42,328 bases of DNA from Flavobacteriaceae bacterium (GTDB lineage: Bacteria > Bacteroidota > Bacteroidia > Flavobacteriales > Flavobacteriaceae): NCBI GenBank assembly GCA_030829155.1, contig JAURBD010000002.1, forward strand, positions 1 to 42,328, given 5' to 3'. Positions 7,380 to 19,802 of the stretch are shown here, in pieces (position 1 is the stretch's first letter; every line of letters starts with the position of its first letter). The translations under genes and the position numbers were made by a program. The notes beneath the pieces are model-generated. The model was given only the letters and a program-made list of their open reading frames with translations. It was not told the DNA's origin and did no database searches.

Positions 7380-8703
7380 TTTTTTTTGTAGTCCTTAGTT
7401 CGTACAAAAAAACGCCATAAACAATCCCGTATTGAAGCCCAATTAAGTAGAAATTTTCCTCAAAATTTGGATTTCCATAAGCTGCATAACTTAGAACTAT
7501 TAGACAGCTCCAAAACAGAGGATAGGTATAGTTTGTGAATAGCGAAAGGCTTACTAATGTCACAATATACCAGGGATGAACCGTAGTTGAAATAAAAAAA
7601 TAACAACTCAAAGTAAGTAACATTCCATTGATTACAGAAACAGCTGTTTTGTTCGAACGAAAAAAACTAAACACAGCAACAATTGCTAAAACAACATAAG
7701 GTGTAATTTTAGCTAATTGTCTTATGATATTATATCCTTTTATTTCATAACCAATTTCACGAATAATATAATAAAGACTACCATTAAACTCAAAGCGATT
7801 GAACCACAACTTAAGGGTTTTAAGATAATTAGTAATGTTGTTTTCTACAAAAAAGAATGGAATAAAAACTACCCCTAAAAAAACTAAACTGTAAAGTCCA
7901 AAAAGTATGCTTTTTTTTGGTTTTAAATAATTCCACAGCACTGGCAAAATTAGTAAGGGAATCAATTTAGTAGCAATGGAGACAGCCATTGAAACTGCTC
8001 CAAGCATCAGTTTGTGATGAGAAAAAATCAAATACAATCCCATAAAAAAAAAGAATACCATAACACCTTCCCAATGTAGGTTTCCAGTCAATTCAATAAT
8101 AATCAGAGGATTTAGAAAGTAATAAGCAATTCTTTTTTTATCAAGCTTTAAAAAATCTAATAACTTAATTCCGATCCAGAAGACCCCGAGATCTGCTAAA
8201 ATCAGAAGAATACGGATACAAATAATATTGACAAGTATTGAGTTTCCACCAATGGTATTGGCCAAAAAAAATCCAAATTGATTTACTGGAGGATAGTTTG
8301 AATAATGCTTAGCACTCAAACTACCCATTCCTTCATGTAATTTTTGACTGAATTCCGATATTATTATTGGAGATTGGATTAATATATTAGGTGTGAATTC
8401 ATAGGGGCTCATCCCATTAGAAAGTAACATCCCATCCCAAATAAATCGAAAGAAATCATCTGAAAGAAGAGGAGTTGAAACAAAAAAGATGAGTCTGAAT
8501 AGAATACCTAGCTCAAGAATTTTTTTCAATCTGAGGCTTTTATGAATTATAAAAAAACTACTTAGAAACAGAAAAATATAAATTAGAATTAAAATCAAAC
8601 TTTGGTTTCTATCAATCTCATAACCCATGAAATAATAACCAAAGAAGCATCCAATTAGAAGTGTTGCATTAAGTACTTTTAAAATATTTTTTTTATTGTT
8701 CAT
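7363..8703 (-). CDS. integral membrane GT-C-like glycosyl/mannosyltransferase
   Basis: Multi-TM protein with SDDFFRFIWDG...NGMSPYEFTPN motif typical of GT-C-type lipid-linked sugar transferases. Confidence 0.72.
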   Translation of the reverse strand: MNNKKNILKVLNATLLIGCFFGYYFMGYEIDRNQSLILILIYIFLFLSSFFIIHKSLRLKKILELGILFRLIFFVSTPLLSDDFFRFIWDGMLLSNGMSPYEFTPNILIQSPIIISEFSQKLHEGMGSLSAKHYSNYPPVNQFGFFLANTIGGNSILVNIICIRILLILADLGVFWIGIKLLDFLKLDKKRIAYYFLNPLIIIELTGNLHWEGVMVFFFFMGLYLIFSHHKLMLGAVSMAVSIATKLIPLLILPVLWNYLKPKKSILFGLYSLVFLGVVFIPFFFVENNITNYLKTLKLWFNRFEFNGSLYYIIREIGYEIKGYNIIRQLAKITPYVVLAIVAVFSFFRSNKTAVSVINGMLLTLSCYFFISTTVHPWYIVTLVSLSLFTNYTYPLFWSCLIVLSYAAYGNPNFEENFYLIGLQYGIVYGVFLYELRTTKKIISSF

Positions 8704-10205
8704 TACCCTTGAGTTCGATATGAATTAATAAATACAAATCCAAAACCAATAAAAAGCATTAAATGAAAGGGGAATAATCCCAAATCACCCGATTCACCAA
8801 CCACAAAACCACTGTATATTCCAAATAAAAAATACAGTGTTAGTAGCCCTTCGAAGATTGTGTTTTTAGAAACTTTTTTTCGCGTGTACTTGTTGTATTT
8901 CAGGGATTTTTTTATGGTTAAAACATTAAATTTTGGAGTACGAATAAAATCACTTTTTTTACCTATATGCCCCTCTAAAACTGCTAATGTATTGTGAAAA
9001 GAAAATCCCATAGCTACAGTGTAAAAAGTAAAAAATATTTTGGTAAATTCTAAAAAGTTAAGAAATCCACCACCTTTTGAATATCTGTAAAGAACCCAAT
9101 AACAACCAAAAAAAATCAAAGTACTGACAATAAAAAGGCTAGACAAATCATAATATAAGCTGAGATGTCCCCATTCATTTTTGATATAAAGCATCGGAAT
9201 ACTCAATACACCAACAAAAAAAACATTCAAGAACATGGTGCTGTTGAGTAGATGAAGAATAGAATGTACTTTAGTAATTAAAGGTAAGTTTTTAGCATGA
9301 ATTACATTTTTAGACATTTTTTGAAAATTTTCTGCTCCACCCTTATTCCATCTAAATTGTTGAGATCGAATGGCACTAATAACTATTGGTAGTTCTGATG
9401 GGGTTTCTACGTCTTCTAAATATTTAAATTTCCATTTTTTTAATTGAGCTCTGTAACTCAAATCTAAATCTTCGGTCAAGGTATCACCTTGCCAATTCCC
9501 AGAGTCAATTATGCAAGTTTTTCTCCAAATACCTGCAGTGCCATTAAAATTCATAAAATGGTTTTTACTGTTTCTTCCGACTTGCTCTAAAGTAAAATGA
9601 GCATCTAGAGCAAAGGCTTGAATTTGAGTAAGAATAGAATAATCTCTGTTGATATGAGACCAACGAGTTTGAACAACACCTATATTTTTGTCATCAAAAT
9701 ATGGAATAGTTTGCAAAAGCCAATTAGATTTTGGTAGAAAGTCAGCATCAAAAATTGCAATAAATTCTCCTTTAGCAATTTCTAAACCCTCTTTTAGTGC
9801 ACCAGCTTTAAAACCAATTCGTTTTTTCCTTCTTATTTGAACAATATCCAATCCTTGTTTTCTAAGTTTTTGAACAAGATTTTGGATTAAGCCAACAGAT
9901 TCATCTGTAGAGTCGTCGAGTACCTGAATTTCCAGTTTCTTTCTAGGGTATTCAATTAAATTAATACATTCTAACAGGCGTTCAATAACATAAATCTCAT
10001 TATAAACCGGAAGTTGAATAGTAACTAGGGGCATAGCATCTAAATCATTCAAATCAAGTTCTACAAGATTTTCTTTTTTCTTTTTGTATTGAATATAATT
10101 CCATAATAGATTAAGCTGAGAGAGGCTGTAAAATAAAACTAATATCAGTGAGATTGAGTATAAAAACATCAAAAAAACAGATAGATAGAACCAGATATTT
10201 TCCAT
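8703..10205 (-). CDS. membrane GT2 glycosyltransferase, CesA-like
   Basis: VTIQLPVYNE, IFDADFLPK, TEDLDLSYR, QQFRW (D,D,D,QxxRW) plus multiple TM segments. Confidence 0.9.
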   Translation of the reverse strand: MENIWFYLSVFLMFLYSISLILVLFYSLSQLNLLWNYIQYKKKKENLVELDLNDLDAMPLVTIQLPVYNEIYVIERLLECINLIEYPRKKLEIQVLDDSTDESVGLIQNLVQKLRKQGLDIVQIRRKKRIGFKAGALKEGLEIAKGEFIAIFDADFLPKSNWLLQTIPYFDDKNIGVVQTRWSHINRDYSILTQIQAFALDAHFTLEQVGRNSKNHFMNFNGTAGIWRKTCIIDSGNWQGDTLTEDLDLSYRAQLKKWKFKYLEDVETPSELPIVISAIRSQQFRWNKGGAENFQKMSKNVIHAKNLPLITKVHSILHLLNSTMFLNVFFVGVLSIPMLYIKNEWGHLSLYYDLSSLFIVSTLIFFGCYWVLYRYSKGGGFLNFLEFTKIFFTFYTVAMGFSFHNTLAVLEGHIGKKSDFIRTPKFNVLTIKKSLKYNKYTRKKVSKNTIFEGLLTLYFLFGIYSGFVVGESGDLGLFPFHLMLFIGFGFVFINSYRTQG

Positions 10206-10210
10206 TTTGG

Positions 10211-10903
10211 CTATTTAGAAAAGTAATGTTTGAAAATCCACCAAATTATTTTTATGCCTGCAAAGATAGTTCCTTTTAAAGTTCCTGAAACTTTTGAAAC
10301 TCCGATTCGTTGACGATAATTTACTTTGATTTCTTGGTATGAAACTTTTTTACGTAAGATTTTCAATTGCATCTCAATAGTCCATCCGTATGTTTTATCA
10401 CTCATGGTTAGATCCATTAATGTATTCCAGCGAATTGCTCTAAATGGTCCAAGATCAGTAAAGTTTGAACTGTATATAATTTTCATCAACAAACAGGCCA
10501 ACCAATTCCCAAATACTTGTTGTGGTGTCATGGATCCAAATTCTCTTTTTTCGGCTACTCGTGCTCCTAAAACGAAATCAAATTCACCTTTTTGTATTGG
10601 TGTAACTAGCGAGGTAAGTTCTTCGGGAAAGTCAGAATAATCCCCATCTAAAAAAACAACAATGTCAGGCACTTCATTTTGGTTCTTAAGATAATCGATG
10701 CCTTTTAGGCAAGCGTATCCATATCCTTTTCTTTTTTCTGTAAGAACAGTAGCGCCAGCTAGCTGGGCTACTTCTAAAGTATTGTCCGTCGAATTATTAT
10801 TGATAACTATAACTTCATCAATAATTTTTGGTAGATCATTTATTACATGGCTTATGGATTCTTGTTCATTAAAAGCAGGAATGATGACTTTGATTTGTTG
10901 CAT
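10211..10903 (-). CDS. GT2 glycosyltransferase, DPM1-like
   Basis: KVIIPAFNEQESI, INNNSTDNT, FLDGDYSD, LGPFRAIRW. Confidence 0.92.
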   Translation of the reverse strand: MQQIKVIIPAFNEQESISHVINDLPKIIDEVIVINNNSTDNTLEVAQLAGATVLTEKRKGYGYACLKGIDYLKNQNEVPDIVVFLDGDYSDFPEELTSLVTPIQKGEFDFVLGARVAEKREFGSMTPQQVFGNWLACLLMKIIYSSNFTDLGPFRAIRWNTLMDLTMSDKTYGWTIEMQLKILRKKVSYQEIKVNYRQRIGVSKVSGTLKGTIFAGIKIIWWIFKHYFSK

Positions 10904-10987: not shown

Positions 10988-12535
10988 TTAGTTTCCTGAA
11001 GGAAATTCTGGAGAAAAGAACCTATTCTCTAAAGGACCGTTTTCTAATTTTAGAACTCCCCTCGGACAAACAGCAGAACACACACCACAGCCAACACAGG
11101 AGGACCGAACTATATTTTGCCCTTTTTGAGCATATGCACGAACATCAATTCCCATTTCACAGTAGGTTGAACAATTTCCACAAGAAATACATTGACCTCC
11201 GTTTGTAGTTATTCTAAATCTAGATTTGAAACGCTGAATTAAACCCAAATAGGCAGCTAAAGGACATCCAAAACGACACCAAACCCTATTTCCAAAAATT
11301 GGATAAAATCCAGTGCCTATAACTCCAGCAAAAACAGATCCAATAAGAAAACCATAAATATTTTGAATGGTTTGTGTTTTGATTCCGATAACATTTTGTG
11401 ATCCTGTAAAATAAGAATACAAAGTCAAACCAGTCATCACTAGAGAAAAGAGTAAAACACTGTGAACCATCCAACGTTCCAATTTCCATGCGCCGATTGA
11501 TTTATTTGATAGGTGTCTAAAGGGATCGCCTAAAGTTTCTGCTAGTCCACCACAACCACAAATCCAAGAACAATACCATCTTTTACCAAAAAAATAAACC
11601 ATTACAGGGACAATTACAAGGGTAAGTACAATTCCCCATACAAGAATGAATATACCAAACCCTCCACTTGAAATTAAACTATTTAAATTCCAACTAAAGA
11701 AAAAGTCATAATCCAAAGGGAATGCATTTTTGAAGTCATACCATGGCTTATCAAATCGAACCAAAATTTCAGGAATCAAAAAGGCAAAAACAATTTGAAA
11801 AAATAATACAGAAGTTGTTCTTAATATTTGATGCATATTGTTTCTGTATTTGATGTACATCCGAATTGCCATGACGATCATTACAACGCAATAAAGAAAT
11901 CCATACAGAAACCATTGACTGGCAAGATTTCCACTAATGCTTCGACTGATTGGATCTACAATATATGTCCAGTTTACTATGTAGTCTGGGAAGAAGTATA
12001 ATACAATATAAAAAGTAACTAAAAACAAAAAAACAAACCATCCCAAAAAGCCTCTATTGGTTGATGAATTAAAGTAGATACCATTATTTTTTATTCCAGG
12101 GGGCCCCAGAAGAATTAGGTTTGGTAGAATGTAAAGCAAAGATCCTAAAATTCCAAGTCCAAAAGTTAAAAGCCAAAACAAAGACTTATTTTCTTTAATA
12201 ATCCCTTTACCTGCTATTTTGGCAATATCATAAGACAAACTGTGGGGTTTATCCCAGATTACTTTCCCCCATTCTCTATTTTTTTTGTGAATTTTATTAA
12301 CTTCTTTTACAGCAGTTACTATTTGCGAAGAAAATGAAAAAGGTTCTGAAAACTCTTTTCCCACAAGATTTGTGTTCAAGGAGTTAATAAACAATTCACT
12401 CTTTATTCCTTTGACATTTATTATCCTTTGAAATTCCTTGGGATTCAATTTGTATTTTCCAAGCAAAACCAATGAACAAAATGAACTAAGACCAATTAAA
12501 AAAATACCTAAACCAATTTTCTGTAGTAACTTCAT
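10988..12535 (-). CDS. membrane-bound NapH/NosR-like 4Fe-4S polyferredoxin
   Basis: Multi-TM; WYCSWICGCGGLAETLGDPFR; two ferredoxin motifs CISCGNCSTYCEMG and CVGCGVCSAVCPRG. Confidence 0.9.
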   Translation of the reverse strand: MKLLQKIGLGIFLIGLSSFCSLVLLGKYKLNPKEFQRIINVKGIKSELFINSLNTNLVGKEFSEPFSFSSQIVTAVKEVNKIHKKNREWGKVIWDKPHSLSYDIAKIAGKGIIKENKSLFWLLTFGLGILGSLLYILPNLILLGPPGIKNNGIYFNSSTNRGFLGWFVFLFLVTFYIVLYFFPDYIVNWTYIVDPISRSISGNLASQWFLYGFLYCVVMIVMAIRMYIKYRNNMHQILRTTSVLFFQIVFAFLIPEILVRFDKPWYDFKNAFPLDYDFFFSWNLNSLISSGGFGIFILVWGIVLTLVIVPVMVYFFGKRWYCSWICGCGGLAETLGDPFRHLSNKSIGAWKLERWMVHSVLLFSLVMTGLTLYSYFTGSQNVIGIKTQTIQNIYGFLIGSVFAGVIGTGFYPIFGNRVWCRFGCPLAAYLGLIQRFKSRFRITTNGGQCISCGNCSTYCEMGIDVRAYAQKGQNIVRSSCVGCGVCSAVCPRGVLKLENGPLENRFFSPEFPSGN

Positions 12536-12537
12536 AA

Positions 12538-13881
12538 TTATGATATTATGTTATTAAATATTACTTTCCAGCTTTTCTTTTTGAGTTTGATATTAGTATT
12601 AAAATCTTGATTGAATTTTAAAAGAATTTTTTTTTCATACGTTTTAAAAAATTCAGGATCAAAATTACAATTAGCCAATTGTTCAATCATGCAGAAAACT
12701 GACTTTTTTTCACAAAGTATTTTGTCTAATAGCTCATGTCGCATTCGAATTCCAAAGGTGTTAATCCCCAAAAATTTCTTAGTGTTTTCATCATATGCAA
12801 GGGTTATTGCAACATTTTCATTGGGGTGTTTCCAATGAAAATGTTTTTCAGGTTTCGTGGGTTGAGCAGCTACAAGCCCATAGGTTTGATACTCAATGTC
12901 AAAGAATTTTGCGCTATTAAACCAATGTCCAGGATTATAAGCTTTTTTGTTCCCTGTTAGAGTTTGTGCAAGTGTTTCACCCATCATTCTACCTGTGTAC
13001 CAAACTGCTTCTATTGATCTTCTTCCCGTTTGTGGTTCTTGCTGTTCTGAGCAGTCACCAATTGCGTATATTGAATTTTGATTTGTTTCCAAATATTTGT
13101 TTACAAGAATTCCTCGATTGGTGGCAATGTCTGTATTTTTTATAAAATCAATATTGGGTCTCACACCTGTTGTAAGTCCAACAAATTGACAGTTAATAAT
13201 TTCTCCGGAATCTGTTCGAATGGCTTTTACACGTCCAATTTTATCTTCTATAATTTCACTGAGATTTGTATTGAGTCTTAGGTCGATAACGTGTTCTAGT
13301 AGGTGTTGATTTATTAACTTAGACTCTTCTTTTGGTAATACGTTGTTCCAAAAACTGTTTTCTCTAACCAAGAAGGTTACTTTTTTTCCTCTTGAATGTA
13401 GCATTTCTGCCAACTCTACCCCAATAAGGCCCCCACCAACAATAACAGCCTCATTTGTAGAAGGACTATAATCTTCAAGACTATCCAAATCCTGCTTAGA
13501 GTATAGACCTTGTACGCCTTTTAAGTTTTCACCTGGCCAACCAAATTTGTTAGGTATCGAACCTGTGGCTATAATAAGACTATCATAGTAGAGAATGGAT
13601 TTATCAGAAAGTCTAATATTCTTTTCTTTAGGATTTATTTGGGTTACAGTTCCTTGAAGTAAATCCAGTTTATTTTTTTTCCAAAAAGTGTTTTCATAGG
13701 GTTGGGTATCTTCCCATCTTAGATGCCCCATATAAACATACATTATAGCTGTCCGAGAGAAAAAATATGGTGTCTCTTTAGAAATTATTAATATGGGTTT
13801 GCTTGATTTTTTTCGGAAATTTCGGGCAAAAGAAACACCAGCAATTCCATTTCCAATAACAATAACTGGAGGGGCATTCAT
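12538..13881 (-). CDS. NAD(P)/FAD-dependent pyridine nucleotide-disulfide oxidoreductase family protein
   Basis: VIGNGIAGVSFARNFR, VIVGGGLIGVELAEML, IYAIGDCSEQ. Confidence 0.92.
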   Translation of the reverse strand: MNAPPVIVIGNGIAGVSFARNFRKKSSKPILIISKETPYFFSRTAIMYVYMGHLRWEDTQPYENTFWKKNKLDLLQGTVTQINPKEKNIRLSDKSILYYDSLIIATGSIPNKFGWPGENLKGVQGLYSKQDLDSLEDYSPSTNEAVIVGGGLIGVELAEMLHSRGKKVTFLVRENSFWNNVLPKEESKLINQHLLEHVIDLRLNTNLSEIIEDKIGRVKAIRTDSGEIINCQFVGLTTGVRPNIDFIKNTDIATNRGILVNKYLETNQNSIYAIGDCSEQQEPQTGRRSIEAVWYTGRMMGETLAQTLTGNKKAYNPGHWFNSAKFFDIEYQTYGLVAAQPTKPEKHFHWKHPNENVAITLAYDENTKKFLGINTFGIRMRHELLDKILCEKKSVFCMIEQLANCNFDPEFFKTYEKKILLKFNQDFNTNIKLKKKSWKVIFNNIIS

Positions 13882-14041: not shown

Positions 14042-14475
14042 GTCTATATAAAAATACTTTTGGATGCAAATAAAGAATAGATTTTGAGAGCTCTTACAAA
14101 TCCTAATCTAAAGGAAAAAAACATGTATAATTGCCATTTCATTCCTCTTGGGAAATAAGTAGAGATGAGGTTTGGAAAGAGAAAAATGAAGATGGGACAT
14201 TTACAACTCATATAGTGGGAAAAGTTTTGGACTACAACCCATACAAGAAGCTCCGCTCTTCGATTTTTTATAAATTAAATCAACATAATCTAAAAGAATT
14301 TGAACTTAGTTTAACTCTTGATGATCAATCTGTAGGAATTATATTAAAGATTGAACAGGGAGATTTTCCTAATAATCCAGAGGGGAATAAACTCTATGAA
14401 GAATGCTTTGCAGGTTGGAATTTTGTTAAGGATAATTTAATTATTGCTGTAAATGAGTTAATCTCTATTAAGTAA
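14042..14475 (+). pseudogene. decayed SRPBCC/AHSA1-domain gene (in-frame TAG plus frameshift)
   Basis: Upstream frame reads ...KILLDANKE*ILRALTNPNLKEKNMYNCHF; the 14131-14475 ORF continues in another frame as HSSWEISRDEVWKEKNEDG...GKVLDYNPYKKL...GWNFVKDNL. Together they approximate an AHSA1 domain. Confidence 0.72.
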
Positions 14476-14570: not shown

Positions 14571-15263
14571 TTATTTCACAAAACGTAAATAGTATTGATG
14601 GAGTGTGGATGGGGATTTCCCAATATATCTCAAAAGATGAATGATCAAGAAGTGAAATTGTAAACGAAGGACACCGTTGCTTTCAAAACGACGGGCAGAA
14701 GTTTTTACTTCTTTTGATAATACACAAAATAAAGTTTCTTTATATATTCTGTCAATTAATTCGCCATCTTCACAAACCAGGTATTCTTCATTAAAACCTT
14801 TGAGTGATTCGAAAAATTTCTTTTTAATGAATAAAGATTGATCTCCACCCCTACAAAATCGATTGTTAAAACGACTTGCAAAAGAAGCCAATTGAAGACT
14901 CAAATGTGAACTTAAAAATTTTAATCTAAATGAACCGGCTTTGTATCCTTGGTCAAATACTTGGTGAATGGTTCTATCAAAAGCATAAGGAGGAATGGTG
15001 TCTACATGAATGAAGTACAAAAAGTCAGCTTTAGCAATTTTTACTCCGTGATTTTGCTGTATGGCCCTGCCTTTTTCGGTTTGTATTACAGAACAGTCAT
15101 TTTTTTGTTTTAAATAAGCAAAGCTTCCATCAGAACTTCCTCCATCAACAAAAATGATCTCATTTTCGAAAACCATATTCTTTTTTAGTGAAATCAAAAA
15201 CGCTTCTAGCTGATTAATTTCATTGAGGATGGGTATAATTATAGAAAGGTACGGTTTACTCAT
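14571..15263 (-). CDS. TIGR04283-type rSAM/selenodomain-associated (arsenosugar-associated) GT2 transferase
   Basis: LSIIIPILNEINQLEAFL, FVDGGSSDGS, KGRAIQQNHG, FIHVDT, FCRGGDQSLF. Confidence 0.88.
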   Translation of the reverse strand: MSKPYLSIIIPILNEINQLEAFLISLKKNMVFENEIIFVDGGSSDGSFAYLKQKNDCSVIQTEKGRAIQQNHGVKIAKADFLYFIHVDTIPPYAFDRTIHQVFDQGYKAGSFRLKFLSSHLSLQLASFASRFNNRFCRGGDQSLFIKKKFFESLKGFNEEYLVCEDGELIDRIYKETLFCVLSKEVKTSARRFESNGVLRLQFHFLIIHLLRYIGKSPSTLHQYYLRFVK

Positions 15264-15984
15264 TTAGACTCCAGTCGTATTTTTTATATTCAATTTTGGC
15301 TTGGTCGTTAAAATCTTTATCTGAATATTTTTGAATAAAAGTGATTCTTTCTTTTTTTGAACCAAAGTCTTTGCTAAACCATAAGAAAATTCTTGATAGC
15401 GTTATTTTGTGGTATTCAATCTGGTTTTTAGTTGTGTCGTTTATGAAAAGTTTTGCAGCGGCGTCCAGTTGTTTTGGAATTTTAGAAGCTCTGTAGGCCT
15501 CGTTCAATAATTGAGGACAAGAAGCAGAGGCACAATTAATTGCAAAATGAATTCTAGGTTCATTCATTTTCCGCAATACTTTATGTTCAATATCGTTGAG
15601 AGTTAGACTCTCATCATTAGGGAGTTCAAGAAAAATAGTGTCCCAAGGGTCTTTGATGTCTCTGATATTTTGGATAGGATAATTATCAAGAATTAATTTT
15701 ACTGTAATAGCATTATAAGCATTAATAAAATAAGCTAAAGAATCATTTTTGTCAAAATATGGGGCAGGTGGCTTTTGTTCAAGTAGTTTGATGTACTTGT
15801 TCAAATCTGATGAATTTTTTTTCCAGTTTTTATAATCTACATTTCCCTTATCATCTACATATTTTTGTAAAAGCATATCCAAGCTCGAGTGAATTCCTTT
15901 GTCTTGAGAAATTATTTTTTGGGTTTCAAATTTTGAGAATGTAAATCCTGAAAAAATCAATACGACAAGAATAAGATTTTTCAT
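15256..15984 (-). CDS. DUF547 domain-containing exported protein
   Basis: LAYFINAYNAITVKLILDNYP, HFAINCASASCPQLLNEAY; start moved to MKNLILVV (signal peptide). Confidence 0.88.
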   Translation of the reverse strand: MKNLILVVLIFSGFTFSKFETQKIISQDKGIHSSLDMLLQKYVDDKGNVDYKNWKKNSSDLNKYIKLLEQKPPAPYFDKNDSLAYFINAYNAITVKLILDNYPIQNIRDIKDPWDTIFLELPNDESLTLNDIEHKVLRKMNEPRIHFAINCASASCPQLLNEAYRASKIPKQLDAAAKLFINDTTKNQIEYHKITLSRIFLWFSKDFGSKKERITFIQKYSDKDFNDQAKIEYKKYDWSLNE

Positions 15985-16001
15985 TTCAATTTGATTAGGG
16001 G

Positions 16002-16970
16002 TTAACAGCAACCTCCACCATCATAATGATAGGTAGATTCGCTTATAAAAATATTGTTATGATTTGTGTTTTTTAATGCCTGAGCAGTTTTATCACAAAT
16101 TGCCAAAGGTTGATTTTGAAGCAAAATGTGACCATTTTTGTCATCAAAATAGGGCTCATCTCCATAATAAATTGCAGATTTTCCGGTGAAAACACATGGT
16201 CCATCTTCGGGAATTGGGTCTTTGATCGCACAAATCTCTACACTTTCAATAAAAATTCTCTGTTTGGTAGGGTAGTGCTTTGGGTCTAAGATTCTATATG
16301 GTCTTTTCGCCCTAATTTCGATAGTACCAAAACCAACATCAGTTAACATTTTAACATAATCAGCTAAGGGAATTGATCCCGAAAGGCAGAGTGCTCTCAA
16401 GCGTTTGTTGTTCCTCAAGGTTTTGTTCATCGGTTGTTCGCAAATAGGATCACTCATTACCAGTCTTCCTCTGGGTTTTATCACGCGATACATTTCTGTA
16501 AGAGCCTTTTTTAGCTCTTCCATTTTGAAGATATTAAATAAGCAATTTTGTGCTGCAATATCTATACTATTTTCTTCAACTGGAAGGTTCAAAGCATCTC
16601 CTTTTTTGAGTTTCACAAAATCAGATTCGAACCATTCATTCTGTTTTTCAGCGAGTAGAAAATTTTTTCTTGAGGCTTCAAGCATTTCATCAACCACATC
16701 AATTCCGATTACCCCCTCTTTTTGTCTCGAGAAGTATGAAAATTGAAGTAATTCCATTCCACCACCTACTCCTACATACAATATTTTGGGGTTGTTAACT
16801 AAATCTCTGGGATGAACAGTTGATCCACAACCGTAATTCATTTCCTGCATTATTGTAGGGATTTTGAGACCCGGGAATTCCCATATTGGGGTTGTAGTGC
16901 AACATAAACCAACATCTGGAGTAAGTGCTGCTTCTTTATAAATATTTTTGGTTAATTTTAAATAGTCCAT
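16002..16970 (-). CDS. arsM: ArsM-like SAM-dependent methyltransferase (arsenosugar-cluster arsenite methyltransferase)
   Basis: VGVGGGMELLQFSYF SAM-binding region, conserved cysteines DVGLCCTTTP / NYGCGST, C-terminal YHYDGGGCC, located next to ArsS. Confidence 0.85.
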   Translation of the reverse strand: MDYLKLTKNIYKEAALTPDVGLCCTTTPIWEFPGLKIPTIMQEMNYGCGSTVHPRDLVNNPKILYVGVGGGMELLQFSYFSRQKEGVIGIDVVDEMLEASRKNFLLAEKQNEWFESDFVKLKKGDALNLPVEENSIDIAAQNCLFNIFKMEELKKALTEMYRVIKPRGRLVMSDPICEQPMNKTLRNNKRLRALCLSGSIPLADYVKMLTDVGFGTIEIRAKRPYRILDPKHYPTKQRIFIESVEICAIKDPIPEDGPCVFTGKSAIYYGDEPYFDDKNGHILLQNQPLAICDKTAQALKNTNHNNIFISESTYHYDGGGCC

Positions 16971-16971
16971 T

Positions 16972-17802
16972 TTATATTAATTTGAGAAATGATATTAATT
17001 GTTTTACTAATATTATCAAAGATTGTTCCCCTTTTTTAGCCATCTCCATAATGTTGTTAATATCTATAGGTTCCAGGTTTTCCGGATCACATACATCTGT
17101 TAAAACAGAAAAAGCAATACAATCAATTCCAAGCTGGTTTGCAACAATCACCTCTGGAACAGTTGACATTCCAACTGCATCGGCACCAATTATTTTCAAA
17201 TAACGATATTCTGCTTTAGTTTCTAATTGGGGTCCAACAACAGCTGCGTATATTCCCTTATGTAATGTTATTTTTTTTGTTTCTGCAATTTTTATTGCTT
17301 TATCTTTTAAGGAAGTGTCATAAGGTTCACTCATATCAACAAAACGATTACCGAGACAATCAACACCTTTCTCTGCTAGGGGAGACCCACCTTGCAGATT
17401 AATATGATCTTCAATCAACATAATCTCTCCTTTATTATAATCTAAGTTTATTGCACCAGCAGCATTACTGATTATTAATTTTTTTACTCCAAGCTCATTC
17501 ATAACCCTAACCGGGTATGTTATCTCAAAAAAATTATAACCCTCATAGAGGTGAAAGCGTCCCTGAAAAACAAGAACTTTTTTTGAACTTAAAGAGCCGT
17601 AAATTAGTTTTCCAGTTTGATGTTCAACGGTTGACGACCTAAAATTAGGAATATCCTCAAAAGGAATCTCTTTTTCAATTACTAGGTAATTGACCAAATC
17701 GCTCAATCCAGTGCCTAAAATAATTCCAATTGCTCCATTTTCTATACCTTGCTTTTTGAGATATTTCGAGCTTTCTTCAATTTTTTGAATCATTGTTTTC
17801 AT
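16972..17802 (-). CDS. purine-nucleoside phosphorylase
   Basis: GIILGTGLSDLV, NAAGAINLDY, GPQLETKAEYR, GADAVGMSTVPE. Confidence 0.93.
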   Translation of the reverse strand: MKTMIQKIEESSKYLKKQGIENGAIGIILGTGLSDLVNYLVIEKEIPFEDIPNFRSSTVEHQTGKLIYGSLSSKKVLVFQGRFHLYEGYNFFEITYPVRVMNELGVKKLIISNAAGAINLDYNKGEIMLIEDHINLQGGSPLAEKGVDCLGNRFVDMSEPYDTSLKDKAIKIAETKKITLHKGIYAAVVGPQLETKAEYRYLKIIGADAVGMSTVPEVIVANQLGIDCIAFSVLTDVCDPENLEPIDINNIMEMAKKGEQSLIILVKQLISFLKLI

Positions 17803-18404
17803 TGGTCTAAGAATTTTAAAAGTTCAGGAATTGTTTCGAGGTCTTCAAAATAATCTATGTCGTTTTTGGTTTCTAAATATGCTAATGTATTGTTTTTAAA
17901 GTCTGCAACCGTATCCTTGAAAACCCTTGAAGTTCCCCACCTTTTTTCGTGAAAAACAGATGGAATCCATCTTGAAAGACCTAATAAGTAATATCCCCCA
18001 TCCGTTGCTGGTCCAATTACACCATCTACATTTCTTAATGTAAAAAAGGCCTTGTTGATGATTTGAGCATCTAAATTCCATAAGTCGGTGCCAATGACAA
18101 CTATTTGATTATAACCACAATTAAAACCTATTTTAAAAGCATTAGCCATCCGTTCTCCCAAAGAATTCCCTTCTTGAATTTTTTTATTGCGAACACGACC
18201 CTCCCAAATATCCTGATCATCAATAAAATCAGAATAATATAAACTCTTATGTGCGTCAACTCCATCTACAACTAAAGCTGTTTTATCAATCAGTTTATGG
18301 AATATTAAAAGCGCTTTTTCATCACCAATTGTTTTTGCTAACCGGGTCTTTACCTTTCCAAGTTGTGGGTTTTTTGTGAAGATTAGTAGTAGTTTTTTCC
18401 CCAT
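17799..18404 (-). CDS. TIGR04282-type rSAM/selenodomain-associated transferase (DUF2064, GT-A fold)
   Basis: LLIFTKNPQLGKVKTRLAKTIGDEKAL, IGTDLWNL, GPATDGGYYLLGL. Confidence 0.9.
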   Translation of the reverse strand: MGKKLLLIFTKNPQLGKVKTRLAKTIGDEKALLIFHKLIDKTALVVDGVDAHKSLYYSDFIDDQDIWEGRVRNKKIQEGNSLGERMANAFKIGFNCGYNQIVVIGTDLWNLDAQIINKAFFTLRNVDGVIGPATDGGYYLLGLSRWIPSVFHEKRWGTSRVFKDTVADFKNNTLAYLETKNDIDYFEDLETIPELLKFLDQ

Positions 18405-18409
18405 AAAAG

Positions 18410-19465
18410 TTAAGTTATACTTCCTTGACAGCTGCTACCAGCTCCAGCTGTGCATCCGTAACAATGTTGGGAAAGTAGTATGTAACGATTGTTGAGTTTA
18501 CCTTCATTAAATTCACTTATGTGTTTAGTTGTAACATCAACTTTGAGATTCAACATTTGATTAAAATCACAATCAAACAAAAAGCCTTCCCAGTTGACCG
18601 AAAGAGTATTGGTGCACATCAGATTTTTTACAGCTGAGGGATTAAAAGCATCCACTAGCGTATACATATATTCTTCATAGTTTTCTGAAGCAATAAGATA
18701 ATCTAGAAAACGACTGATTGGAAGATTGGTAATTGTAAATAAGTTATTGAATTTAATATTAAAATCTTCTAGTAAAGCTTTTTTGAAATCTACCTCCAAT
18801 ACTGATTGATCTCCTGGTAAAAAAGCTCCAGAAGGATTGTAAACAAGATCCAGCTGAAGATTTTTGTCTAATATTCCATATCCAACTTTGTTTAACATCT
18901 GAAGCGCTTTAATGGAAGTTTCAAAAACTCCATCACCTCTTTGACGATCCGTTTTTTCTCTCTTGTAAAATGGGAGTGAGGAAATAACATGAATTTTGTG
19001 CTTTCCAAAAAAAGTTGGGAGATCATTATATTTTTTATTAGCTAGTATAATCGTGAGATTGGATCGAACTATAATTTCCTCCACATTGGTTTTTCGTAGC
19101 TCTTCAACAAACCATCTAAATCTAGGATGCATTTCGGGTGCCCCACCAGTAAGATCAACGGTTTTGATTTTTATATTTTTTATGACTTTTAAAATTTGTT
19201 CCATGGTTCTGTGAGTCATAATTTCTTTACGATCTGGGCCAGCATCAACATGGCAATGAGCACAAACTTGATTACACATGTACCCAACATTAATTTGTAA
19301 AATTTCTAGTTTTTTAGGCCTTATTGGAGGAAGCTTGTTGGAAGCAACTTTTTTTTTAAAAGTAGGTAAACTTCCGTCTTTGAAAATCCCACTAGCTAGT
19401 ATTTCGAGCTGTTTTTCGGTTTGAGAGAGTGAATTATTTCTCGCTTTAAGTGATTTTATCTTCAT
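18410..19465 (-). CDS. arsS: arsenosugar biosynthesis radical SAM protein ArsS
   Basis: Radical SAM CNQVCAHC (CxxxCxxC), DLTGGAPEMHPRFRWFV, C-terminal HCYGCTAGAGSSCQG. Confidence 0.92.
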   Translation of the reverse strand: MKIKSLKARNNSLSQTEKQLEILASGIFKDGSLPTFKKKVASNKLPPIRPKKLEILQINVGYMCNQVCAHCHVDAGPDRKEIMTHRTMEQILKVIKNIKIKTVDLTGGAPEMHPRFRWFVEELRKTNVEEIIVRSNLTIILANKKYNDLPTFFGKHKIHVISSLPFYKREKTDRQRGDGVFETSIKALQMLNKVGYGILDKNLQLDLVYNPSGAFLPGDQSVLEVDFKKALLEDFNIKFNNLFTITNLPISRFLDYLIASENYEEYMYTLVDAFNPSAVKNLMCTNTLSVNWEGFLFDCDFNQMLNLKVDVTTKHISEFNEGKLNNRYILLSQHCYGCTAGAGSSCQGSIT

Positions 19466-19466
19466 G

Positions 19467-19802
19467 CTACATGCTCAATTGATCATGACGATTCATCATT
19501 TGAACTCCATGGACTAAAGCAGCTCCAGCTTTTATTGCTGCACCAACATGAACTGCTTCCATCATATCTTCTTTTGGAATACCTATTTGTAAATTATCTT
19601 TAGTATACGCATCAATACAGTACGGACATTGAACGACATGAGATACGGCTAATGCTATTAATAATTTTTCTCGTTTTGATAATGAACCTTCATCGAAAAC
19701 AGTATTGTAATAATCAAAAAATTTTGAGCCAAGAATTTCATTCCATTCGGCTATTGAACTAAATTTTTTCAGGTCTTCGGGTTGGTAATAGCTTTTTTTC
19801 AT
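19467..19802 (-). CDS. arsenosugar biosynthesis-associated peroxidase-like protein (AhpD/CMD fold)
   Basis: LAVSHVVQCPYCIDAYTKD with CxxC, EAVHVGAAIKAGAALVHG. Confidence 0.88.
   Translation of the reverse strand: MKKSYYQPEDLKKFSSIAEWNEILGSKFFDYYNTVFDEGSLSKREKLLIALAVSHVVQCPYCIDAYTKDNLQIGIPKEDMMEAVHVGAAIKAGAALVHGVQMMNRHDQLSM

Follow-up and report, generated by a model that had tools for sequence, protein, structure and literature searches.

A candidate arsenosugar biosynthesis operon in a Flavobacteriaceae genome joins ArsM and ArsS to a purine nucleoside phosphorylase and a nucleotidyltransferase-like protein

The cyanobacterial arsenosugar pathway is described as arsM plus arsS (Xue 2017, 2019; ArsS mechanism, Cheng 2021), and the activity of ArsS has been published (Cheng 2021, cited in PMC12159101). 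The steps after ArsS apparently have no assignment in the accessible literature. The arsinothricin cluster arsQML (PMC8552651) likewise combines an ArsM with a radical SAM enzyme that forms a C-As bond. Five of the families at the locus described here are labelled "arsenosugar biosynthesis" in NCBIfam, and its kind is in that sense already known.

We analyzed a 42,328-nucleotide stretch of contig JAURBD010000002.1 (assembly GCA_030829155.1; "the window") from the 1.6-Mb MAG of a marine member of the Flavobacteriaceae that is close to Candidatus Arcticimaribacter. A first-pass annotation had proposed a flavobacterial host, in agreement with the nearest named relatives (Flavobacteriaceae AH_MB4, Cand. 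Arcticimaribacter, and ocean MAGs), and seven contiguous minus-strand genes at 14571–19802, all of which are present as tightly packed ORFs:

19467–19802, minus strand: AhpD-like protein (TIGR04169; NCBIfam score 177, cut-off 120), first gene of the operon
18410–19465, minus strand: ArsS radical SAM protein (TIGR04167 with DUF3641; NCBIfam 441, cut-off 300)
17799–18404, minus strand: TIGR04282/DUF2064 protein, probable sugar-1-phosphate nucleotidyltransferase (NCBIfam 186, cut-off 134)
16972–17802, minus strand: purine nucleoside phosphorylase (PNP), PNP-I type (PRK08202; NCBIfam 316, cut-off 218), overlapping the TIGR04282 gene by ATGA
16002–16970, minus strand: ArsM of the arsenosugar type (NF038099, AsSugarArsM; NCBIfam 564, cut-off 400)
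15256–15984, minus strand: DUF547 protein (ORF called to TTG 16011; Pfam 82, cut-off 27)
14571–15263, minus strand: TIGR04283 protein, GT2-type glycosyltransferase (NCBIfam 213, cut-off 182)

The spacing in gene order is +1, +5, −4 (the ATGA overlap), +1, about +17, and −8 nt. Six of the seven products pass curated NCBIfam cut-offs, including the four (ArsS, TIGR04282, TIGR04283, and ArsM) whose family assignments had been put forward for an HMM check, and the DUF547 protein passes its Pfam cut-off. Conservation of the neighborhood is also borne out, with gene content and order identical to the window's seven in 24 of 80 related loci. Together, the score margins and the retained order lead us to rule out a chance origin of the seven-gene set.

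By sequence comparison, the operon very probably serves to convert inorganic arsenic, which is toxic, to a sugar that contains arsenic, and we favor a route in which ArsM, ArsS, PNP, TIGR04282, and TIGR04283 would act in turn. The initial two steps, which follow from characterized families, can be proposed with high confidence: ArsM would methylate arsenite to dimethylarsenite, and ArsS would transfer the 5′-deoxyadenosyl group of SAM onto dimethylarsenite, giving 5′-deoxy-5′-dimethylarsinoyl-adenosine. The ArsM residues Cys48, Cys143, and Cys195 align with Cys72, Cys174, and Cys224 of CmArsM (4kw7), and these three arsenic-binding cysteines are invariant among 57 sequences; further CC pairs occur at positions 23–24 and at the C terminus. 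ArsS has a CX3CX2C motif (Cys64/Cys68/Cys71) and five C-terminal cysteines (Cys284, Cys299, Cys335, Cys338, and Cys346), all eight invariant among 141 sequences; a PDB search at the chosen threshold returned no sequence relative of ArsS. Neither a methyltransferase outside the arsenic family nor an ArsS lacking cluster-binding residues, the two findings named beforehand as damaging to the proposal, is thus what the window contains. The AhpD-like (peroxidase-like) protein has a CPYC motif and may handle thiol/arsenic redox; its gene precedes arsS in every one of the 80 named loci.

PNP would convert the dimethylarsinoyl-adenosine by phosphorolysis to adenine and arseno-ribose α-1-phosphate, a step that we consider reasonably likely. 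The pairing of PNP with TIGR04282 is frequent in Flavobacteriaceae (adjacent in 23 of 30 PNP loci), and a linked PNP is missing at many ArsS-positive loci outside this family. No other PNP_UDP_1 match turned up in the MAG, so the operon PNP may be a housekeeping enzyme. We considered an adenine-specific PNP dedicated to arseno-adenosine, as an Asp at the position of human Asn243 and a non-His residue at 257 looked like an adaptation to 5′-modified adenosine; the human E201Q:N243D double mutant accepts adenosine prodrugs (PMC2799393). This proposal was rejected: the active site is compatible with an arsenic role but not diagnostic of it, because the Asp is present in all Bacteroidota PNPs examined, operon-encoded or not, most of which also lack His257. 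In Flavobacteriaceae the His is kept only by a separate, never-linked PNP clade (L173–L176 and L227). G329 carries both the His-keeping and the His-less type.

TIGR04282, predicted to convert arseno-ribose-1-phosphate to an NDP-sugar, had been listed as a transferase, but its fold and motifs look nucleotidyltransferase-like rather than those of a glycosyl transferase. Its predicted model (pLDDT 93.5) matches 3cgx, FbiD Rv2983, MM2497, and 3-phosphoglycerate guanylyltransferase in Foldseek, with TM scores of 0.72–0.75 against CofC-type nucleotidyltransferases, and the motifs KTRL (Lys19-Thr-Arg-Leu), GxD, DGGYY, and NDxD (Asn181-Asp-x-Asp184), as well as Asp107, are invariant. By fold and motifs it is a probable CofC/FbiD-like enzyme, probably acting on a sugar-1-phosphate, and we lean towards assigning it the nucleotidyl step. 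The gene is genetically coupled to that of PNP, and the pair stays joined where it is located 8–9 kb from arsS.

TIGR04283, an inverting GT2 with conserved DGGSxDGS, HxD, and ED motifs and, like ArsS, without a sequence relative in the PDB at that threshold, would then transfer the sugar to glycerol, glycerol phosphate, or a glycerolipid as a β-riboside, a step that we hold to be somewhat probable. The stereochemistry fits the proposed route, because PNP works with α-ribose-1-phosphate (PMC11201700) and an inverting GT2 would give a β-ribofuranoside, the form named for natural arsenosugars (PMC6656958). The DUF547 protein probably is exported, as suggested by its hydrophobic N terminus. Aligned sequences show its Met10 to be nearly invariant, for which reason ATG 15984 is the more likely start over the called TTG 16011; His143, His155, and Cys160 (numbered from the TTG) are conserved. 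Its confident model gave no PDB match at E ≤ 0.001 from which a mechanism might be read.

The operon had been called complete-looking, but its end was probably set too early. On the 3′ side of the TIGR04283 gene an opposite-strand ORF (14131–14475) is followed by a minus-strand pair, and further candidate members lie beyond:

12538–13881, minus strand: FAD/NAD(P)-dependent oxidoreductase (FADox), probable extension, linked in several genera
10988–12535, minus strand: NapH-like membrane 4Fe-4S protein, probable extension by NCBIfam/Pfam matches and genus co-occurrence
10211–10903, minus strand: GT2 resembling polyprenyl-phosphate glycosyltransferases, possible extension, a conserved neighbor in 12 of 80 loci
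8703–10205, minus strand: large membrane GT2, possible extension by genus co-occurrence with TIGR04282
7363–8703, minus strand: multi-spanning membrane protein of glycosyltransferase-C appearance without a Pfam match, weakly supported extension

Across 41 genera, NapH-like proteins occur in 28 of 29 with TIGR04282 versus 0 of 12 without it, and the large membrane GT2 in 29 of 29 versus 1 of 12, counts that include shared ancestry. The Flavobacteriaceae cluster is thus probably larger than seven genes, as FADox, NapH-like, and further glycosyltransferase genes track TIGR04282. We had considered NapH-like and FADox as arsenic-specific components and rejected this, since outside Flavobacteriaceae ArsS is present in only 12 of 22 NapH-positive genomes. 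We tentatively suggest that DUF547, the FADox/NapH-like pair, and the downstream glycosyltransferases might act at the membrane on the product, extending or exporting it.

The NF038099 ArsM is confined to ArsS-positive genera (21 of 21). Three genera nested among arsenic-positive ones (G183, G315, and G333) keep TIGR04282-PNP-TIGR04283 without ArsS or NF038099, two of them also with DUF547, so that module genes are present where ArsS is absent. Because of this retention the module is probably not purely arsenic-specific, and while biosynthesis is the likely direction, as had been claimed, the operon is no proof of arsenosugar production. A less likely alternative is that TIGR04282-PNP-DUF547-TIGR04283, the redox genes (a membrane ferredoxin system), and the additional glycosyltransferases make up a general Flavobacteriaceae route, not described before, from nucleosides to (deoxy)ribosyl glycoconjugates via ribose-1-phosphate and NDP-ribose, onto which ArsM and ArsS were joined as an optional input feeding an arsenic analogue. 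The ADP-ribosylglycohydrolase gene upstream of the module in all three ArsS-less genera is in keeping with this, as are the closer tracking of module parts with each other than with ArsS (28/29 and 29/29) and the absence of ArsS from 10 of the 22 genomes outside Flavobacteriaceae that have the NapH-like protein. However, TIGR04282 and TIGR04283 accompany ArsS in further families of the phylum, and in Synechococcus elongatus all three exceed their cut-offs; these occurrences argue for an arsenic-linked core. The ArsS-less loci may reflect one recent loss.

Recycling of 5′-deoxyadenosine/adenosine from SAM chemistry by PNP, with only ArsM and ArsS acting on arsenic and both transferases on unrelated substrates, would suit a sole PNP with a phylum-wide active-site type, but is improbable given TIGR04282 in 26 of 26 ArsS-positive genera tested and the direct ArsS-TIGR04282-TIGR04283 order that recurs in other families. 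Degradation or salvage of external arsenosugars is more improbable still: four other genera have SusC/SusD and a solute transporter within the cluster, some with a metallophosphoesterase, but the window's cluster has no such genes, ArsM and ArsS catalyze synthetic reactions, and the direction of the transferases is anabolic, consistent with the earlier view that the organism makes rather than only degrades arsenosugars. Against the arsenosugar route that we prefer stand the ArsS-less genera with the module, the PNP active-site features common to non-operon Bacteroidota PNPs, and the many ArsS-positive loci outside Flavobacteriaceae that have no PNP linked to them.

What the locus adds, by inference, is a more precise assignment of the last steps, from nucleoside to sugar phosphate, activated sugar, and glycoside. 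A PNP gene overlapping a nucleotidyltransferase-like gene suggests a concrete, testable reaction order that would also explain the β-riboside stereochemistry, and relatives without ArsS can serve as a natural control for module function in the absence of arsenic. Since ArsS is common in the phylum (above cut-off in 122 of 299 genomes), the arsenosugars and arsenolipids of marine food webs may come from heterotrophic marine bacteria too, and not from algae and cyanobacteria alone.

The window's locus resembles the cyanobacterial pathway in ArsM-type methylation followed by ArsS radical-SAM adenosylation, and shares TIGR04282 and TIGR04283 with S. elongatus. In contrast, its ArsM belongs to NF038099, a separate subfamily without a match in S. 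elongatus, and PNP and DUF547 are packed into the operon. All five members of the NCBIfam arsenosugar set (TIGR04167, TIGR04169, TIGR04282, TIGR04283, and NF038099) are above cut-off in this single operon, whereas PNP, DUF547, FADox, and NapH-like proteins are outside the set, and TIGR04282, named there as a glycosyltransferase, has a fold and motifs that indicate a nucleotidyltransferase. The CofC/FbiD phospholactate, PEP, or 3-phosphoglycerate guanylyltransferases have this fold in common with TIGR04282, but at about 15% identity and with an organic acid phosphate as substrate instead of the predicted sugar-1-phosphate. Finally, arsQML differs in its ArsM family and in transferring a 3-amino-3-carboxypropyl group, and comprises three genes without sugar transferases.

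The seven contiguous minus-strand genes at 14571-19802 that the first-pass annotation had proposed as an arsenosugar operon were all found there, six passing NCBIfam curated cut-offs and DUF547 its Pfam cut-off. Their intergenic spacings are 1, 5, −4, 1, about 17, and −8 nt, the −4 nt spacing being the ATGA overlap of the purine nucleoside phosphorylase (PNP) gene with TIGR04282. Because Met10 is nearly invariant in the alignment, ATG 15984 is more likely to be the DUF547 start than TTG 16011. The window corresponds to contig C99 in a metagenome-assembled genome (MAG) of 1.62 Mb that is 89% complete. The guess of a flavobacterial host was right: among named sources, the ArsS sequences closest to this one come from Flavobacteriaceae AH_MB4 (97%), an ocean Flavobacteriales MAG (89%), and Cand. 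Arcticimaribacter (86%). This is a real, conserved arsenosugar operon of a heterotrophic marine flavobacterium, of a kind already named in NCBIfam.

Both arsenic enzymes retain the residues expected of them. ArsS has its cluster-binding residues: the radical-SAM CX3CX2C motif and, within the DUF3641 region, five further cysteines. None of these cysteines varies (n = 141 sequences). ArsM, likewise as the first-pass annotation had it, lies within the arsenic methyltransferases; the arsenosugar-specific model scores it at 564 bits and the general ArsM model at 112. Its C48, C143, and C195, invariant among homologues (n = 57), align (with 4kw7) to the known arsenic-binding residues of the Cyanidioschyzon enzyme, C72, C174, and C224.

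AhpD-like is linked to ArsS in every one of the best 80 named loci; TIGR04282 is linked in 65 (a count including weaker paralogues), PNP in 54, ArsM in 45, DUF547 in 34, TIGR04283 in 24, the FAD/NAD(P)-dependent oxidoreductase (FADox) in 19, and the NapH-like membrane 4Fe-4S protein in 14. All 24 loci with TIGR04283 have the seven genes in the window's order. ArsS exceeds its cut-off in 122/299 genomes of a phylum-wide sample; AhpD-ArsS-TIGR04282-TIGR04283, with neither PNP nor ArsM linked, is frequent outside Flavobacteriaceae, and one such family has ArsS-TIGR04282-FADox-NapH.

Across 41 genera of Flavobacteriaceae, ArsS occurs in 26, arsenosugar ArsM in 21 (all ArsS-positive), TIGR04282 in 29 (including all 26 with ArsS), TIGR04283 in 23, NapH-like in 28 (all TIGR04282-positive), and the GT2 of 8703-10205 in 30 (including all 29 with TIGR04282). 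The five ArsS-positive genera lacking arsenosugar-type ArsM are G304, G310, G311, G324, and G334. NapH-like and GT2 lie within 25 kb of PNP in 23/28 and 24/29 genomes, respectively; Fisher tests of co-occurrence gave p-values as low as 1.6e-9, which are descriptive only, since they take no account of shared ancestry. NapH-like is thus tied to the cluster within Flavobacteriaceae, but 10/22 NapH-like-positive genomes beyond the family lack ArsS, and it is therefore not arsenic-specific in general. In the window, FADox and TIGR04283 have an opposite-strand ORF between them, and the FADox-side extension may therefore be transcribed separately, as a second unit.

Seven loci (L237, L238, L239, L240, L242, L250, and L251) have a membrane fatty-acid-hydroxylase family protein inserted in the cluster, hinting at a lipid product; its electrons could come from the NapH-like/FADox pair. 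In four other Flavobacteriaceae genera (G309, G332, G307, and G335; loci L241, L242, L243, and L251, respectively), the stretch between arsS and TIGR04282-PNP, or the flank of arsS, holds a SusC/SusD pair together with a solute transporter, which may form an uptake system associated with the cluster. These loci also have a second, divergent DUF2064 paralogue close to arsS and, in L241, L242, and L251, a metallophosphoesterase.

NCBIfam names TIGR04282 a glycosyltransferase. The closest structure match of its AlphaFold model (pLDDT 93.5) is the uncharacterised 3cgx, followed by FbiD Rv2983, the probable nucleotidyltransferase MM2497, and 3-phospho-D-glycerate guanylyltransferase (TM 0.72-0.75), with IspD and other nucleotidyltransferases further down; the KTRL, GxD, DGGYY, and NDxD motifs are invariant. 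GT-A glycosyltransferases rank lower but share the general fold, so the modeled evidence that TIGR04282 is likely a misnamed nucleotidyltransferase is strong, not proof. PNP and TIGR04282 form the tightest coupled pair, adjacent in 23/30 Flavobacteriaceae PNP loci and in 0/30 of a phylum-wide draw, and intact even where 8-9 kb from arsS.

At human PNP positions, the operon PNP has Asp at N243, Leu at F200, and Ile at H257, and keeps Glu201. These residues were first considered the mark of a specialised adenine/5′-deoxy site, but non-operon PNPs across the phylum share them, and they therefore do not count as arsenic evidence. Operon-linked PNPs all fall in a clade without the 5′-OH-binding His; a second Flavobacteriaceae clade (L173-L176, L227) keeps it and is never cluster-linked, including in G329, a genome with both. 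For DUF547 (15256-15984; conserved H143, H155, and C160), the confident AlphaFold model matched none of the folds in the PDB at E ≤ 0.001.

These assignments would fit a coherent path to a beta-arsenoriboside. ArsM and then ArsS would yield dimethylarsinoyl-adenosine, steps based on published families (Xue 2017/2019; Cheng 2021). For the three post-ArsS steps we infer that PNP would act as a phosphorylase on this product, TIGR04282 as a nucleotidyltransferase, and TIGR04283, whose ED motif is invariant, as the final inverting GT2.

Three genomes (G183, G315, and G333; 99-100% complete) have neither ArsS nor arsenosugar ArsM yet keep rhodanese-TIGR04282-PNP-TIGR04283, NapH-like, and GT2; DUF547 joins the module in G183 and G315, and is not on the 5.9-kb contig of G333. 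Upstream of rhodanese-TIGR04282-PNP, all three have a gene of one cluster, the two full-length members of which match the ADP-ribosylglycohydrolase family:

L233, 10525-11829, ADP-ribosylglycohydrolase-like cluster gene
L234, 12147-13448, ADP-ribosylglycohydrolase-like cluster gene
L235, 1-800, ADP-ribosylglycohydrolase-like cluster gene

In the TIGR04282+PNP tree, the three group (support 0.997) with G135, whose ArsM is in the cluster but whose ArsS lies at another site in the genome, and this group is nested among arsenic-positive loci. That these genomes lost their arsenic genes but kept the module is the simplest reading, though suggestive only, because a single clade lies behind it.

The specific reaction order, the probable misnaming of TIGR04282, and the larger conserved cluster are newly offered here, and the arsenic-free relatives make the transferase role testable. 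As in the window, ArsS, TIGR04282, and TIGR04283 are present in Synechococcus elongatus, which differs in lacking the window's ArsM type.
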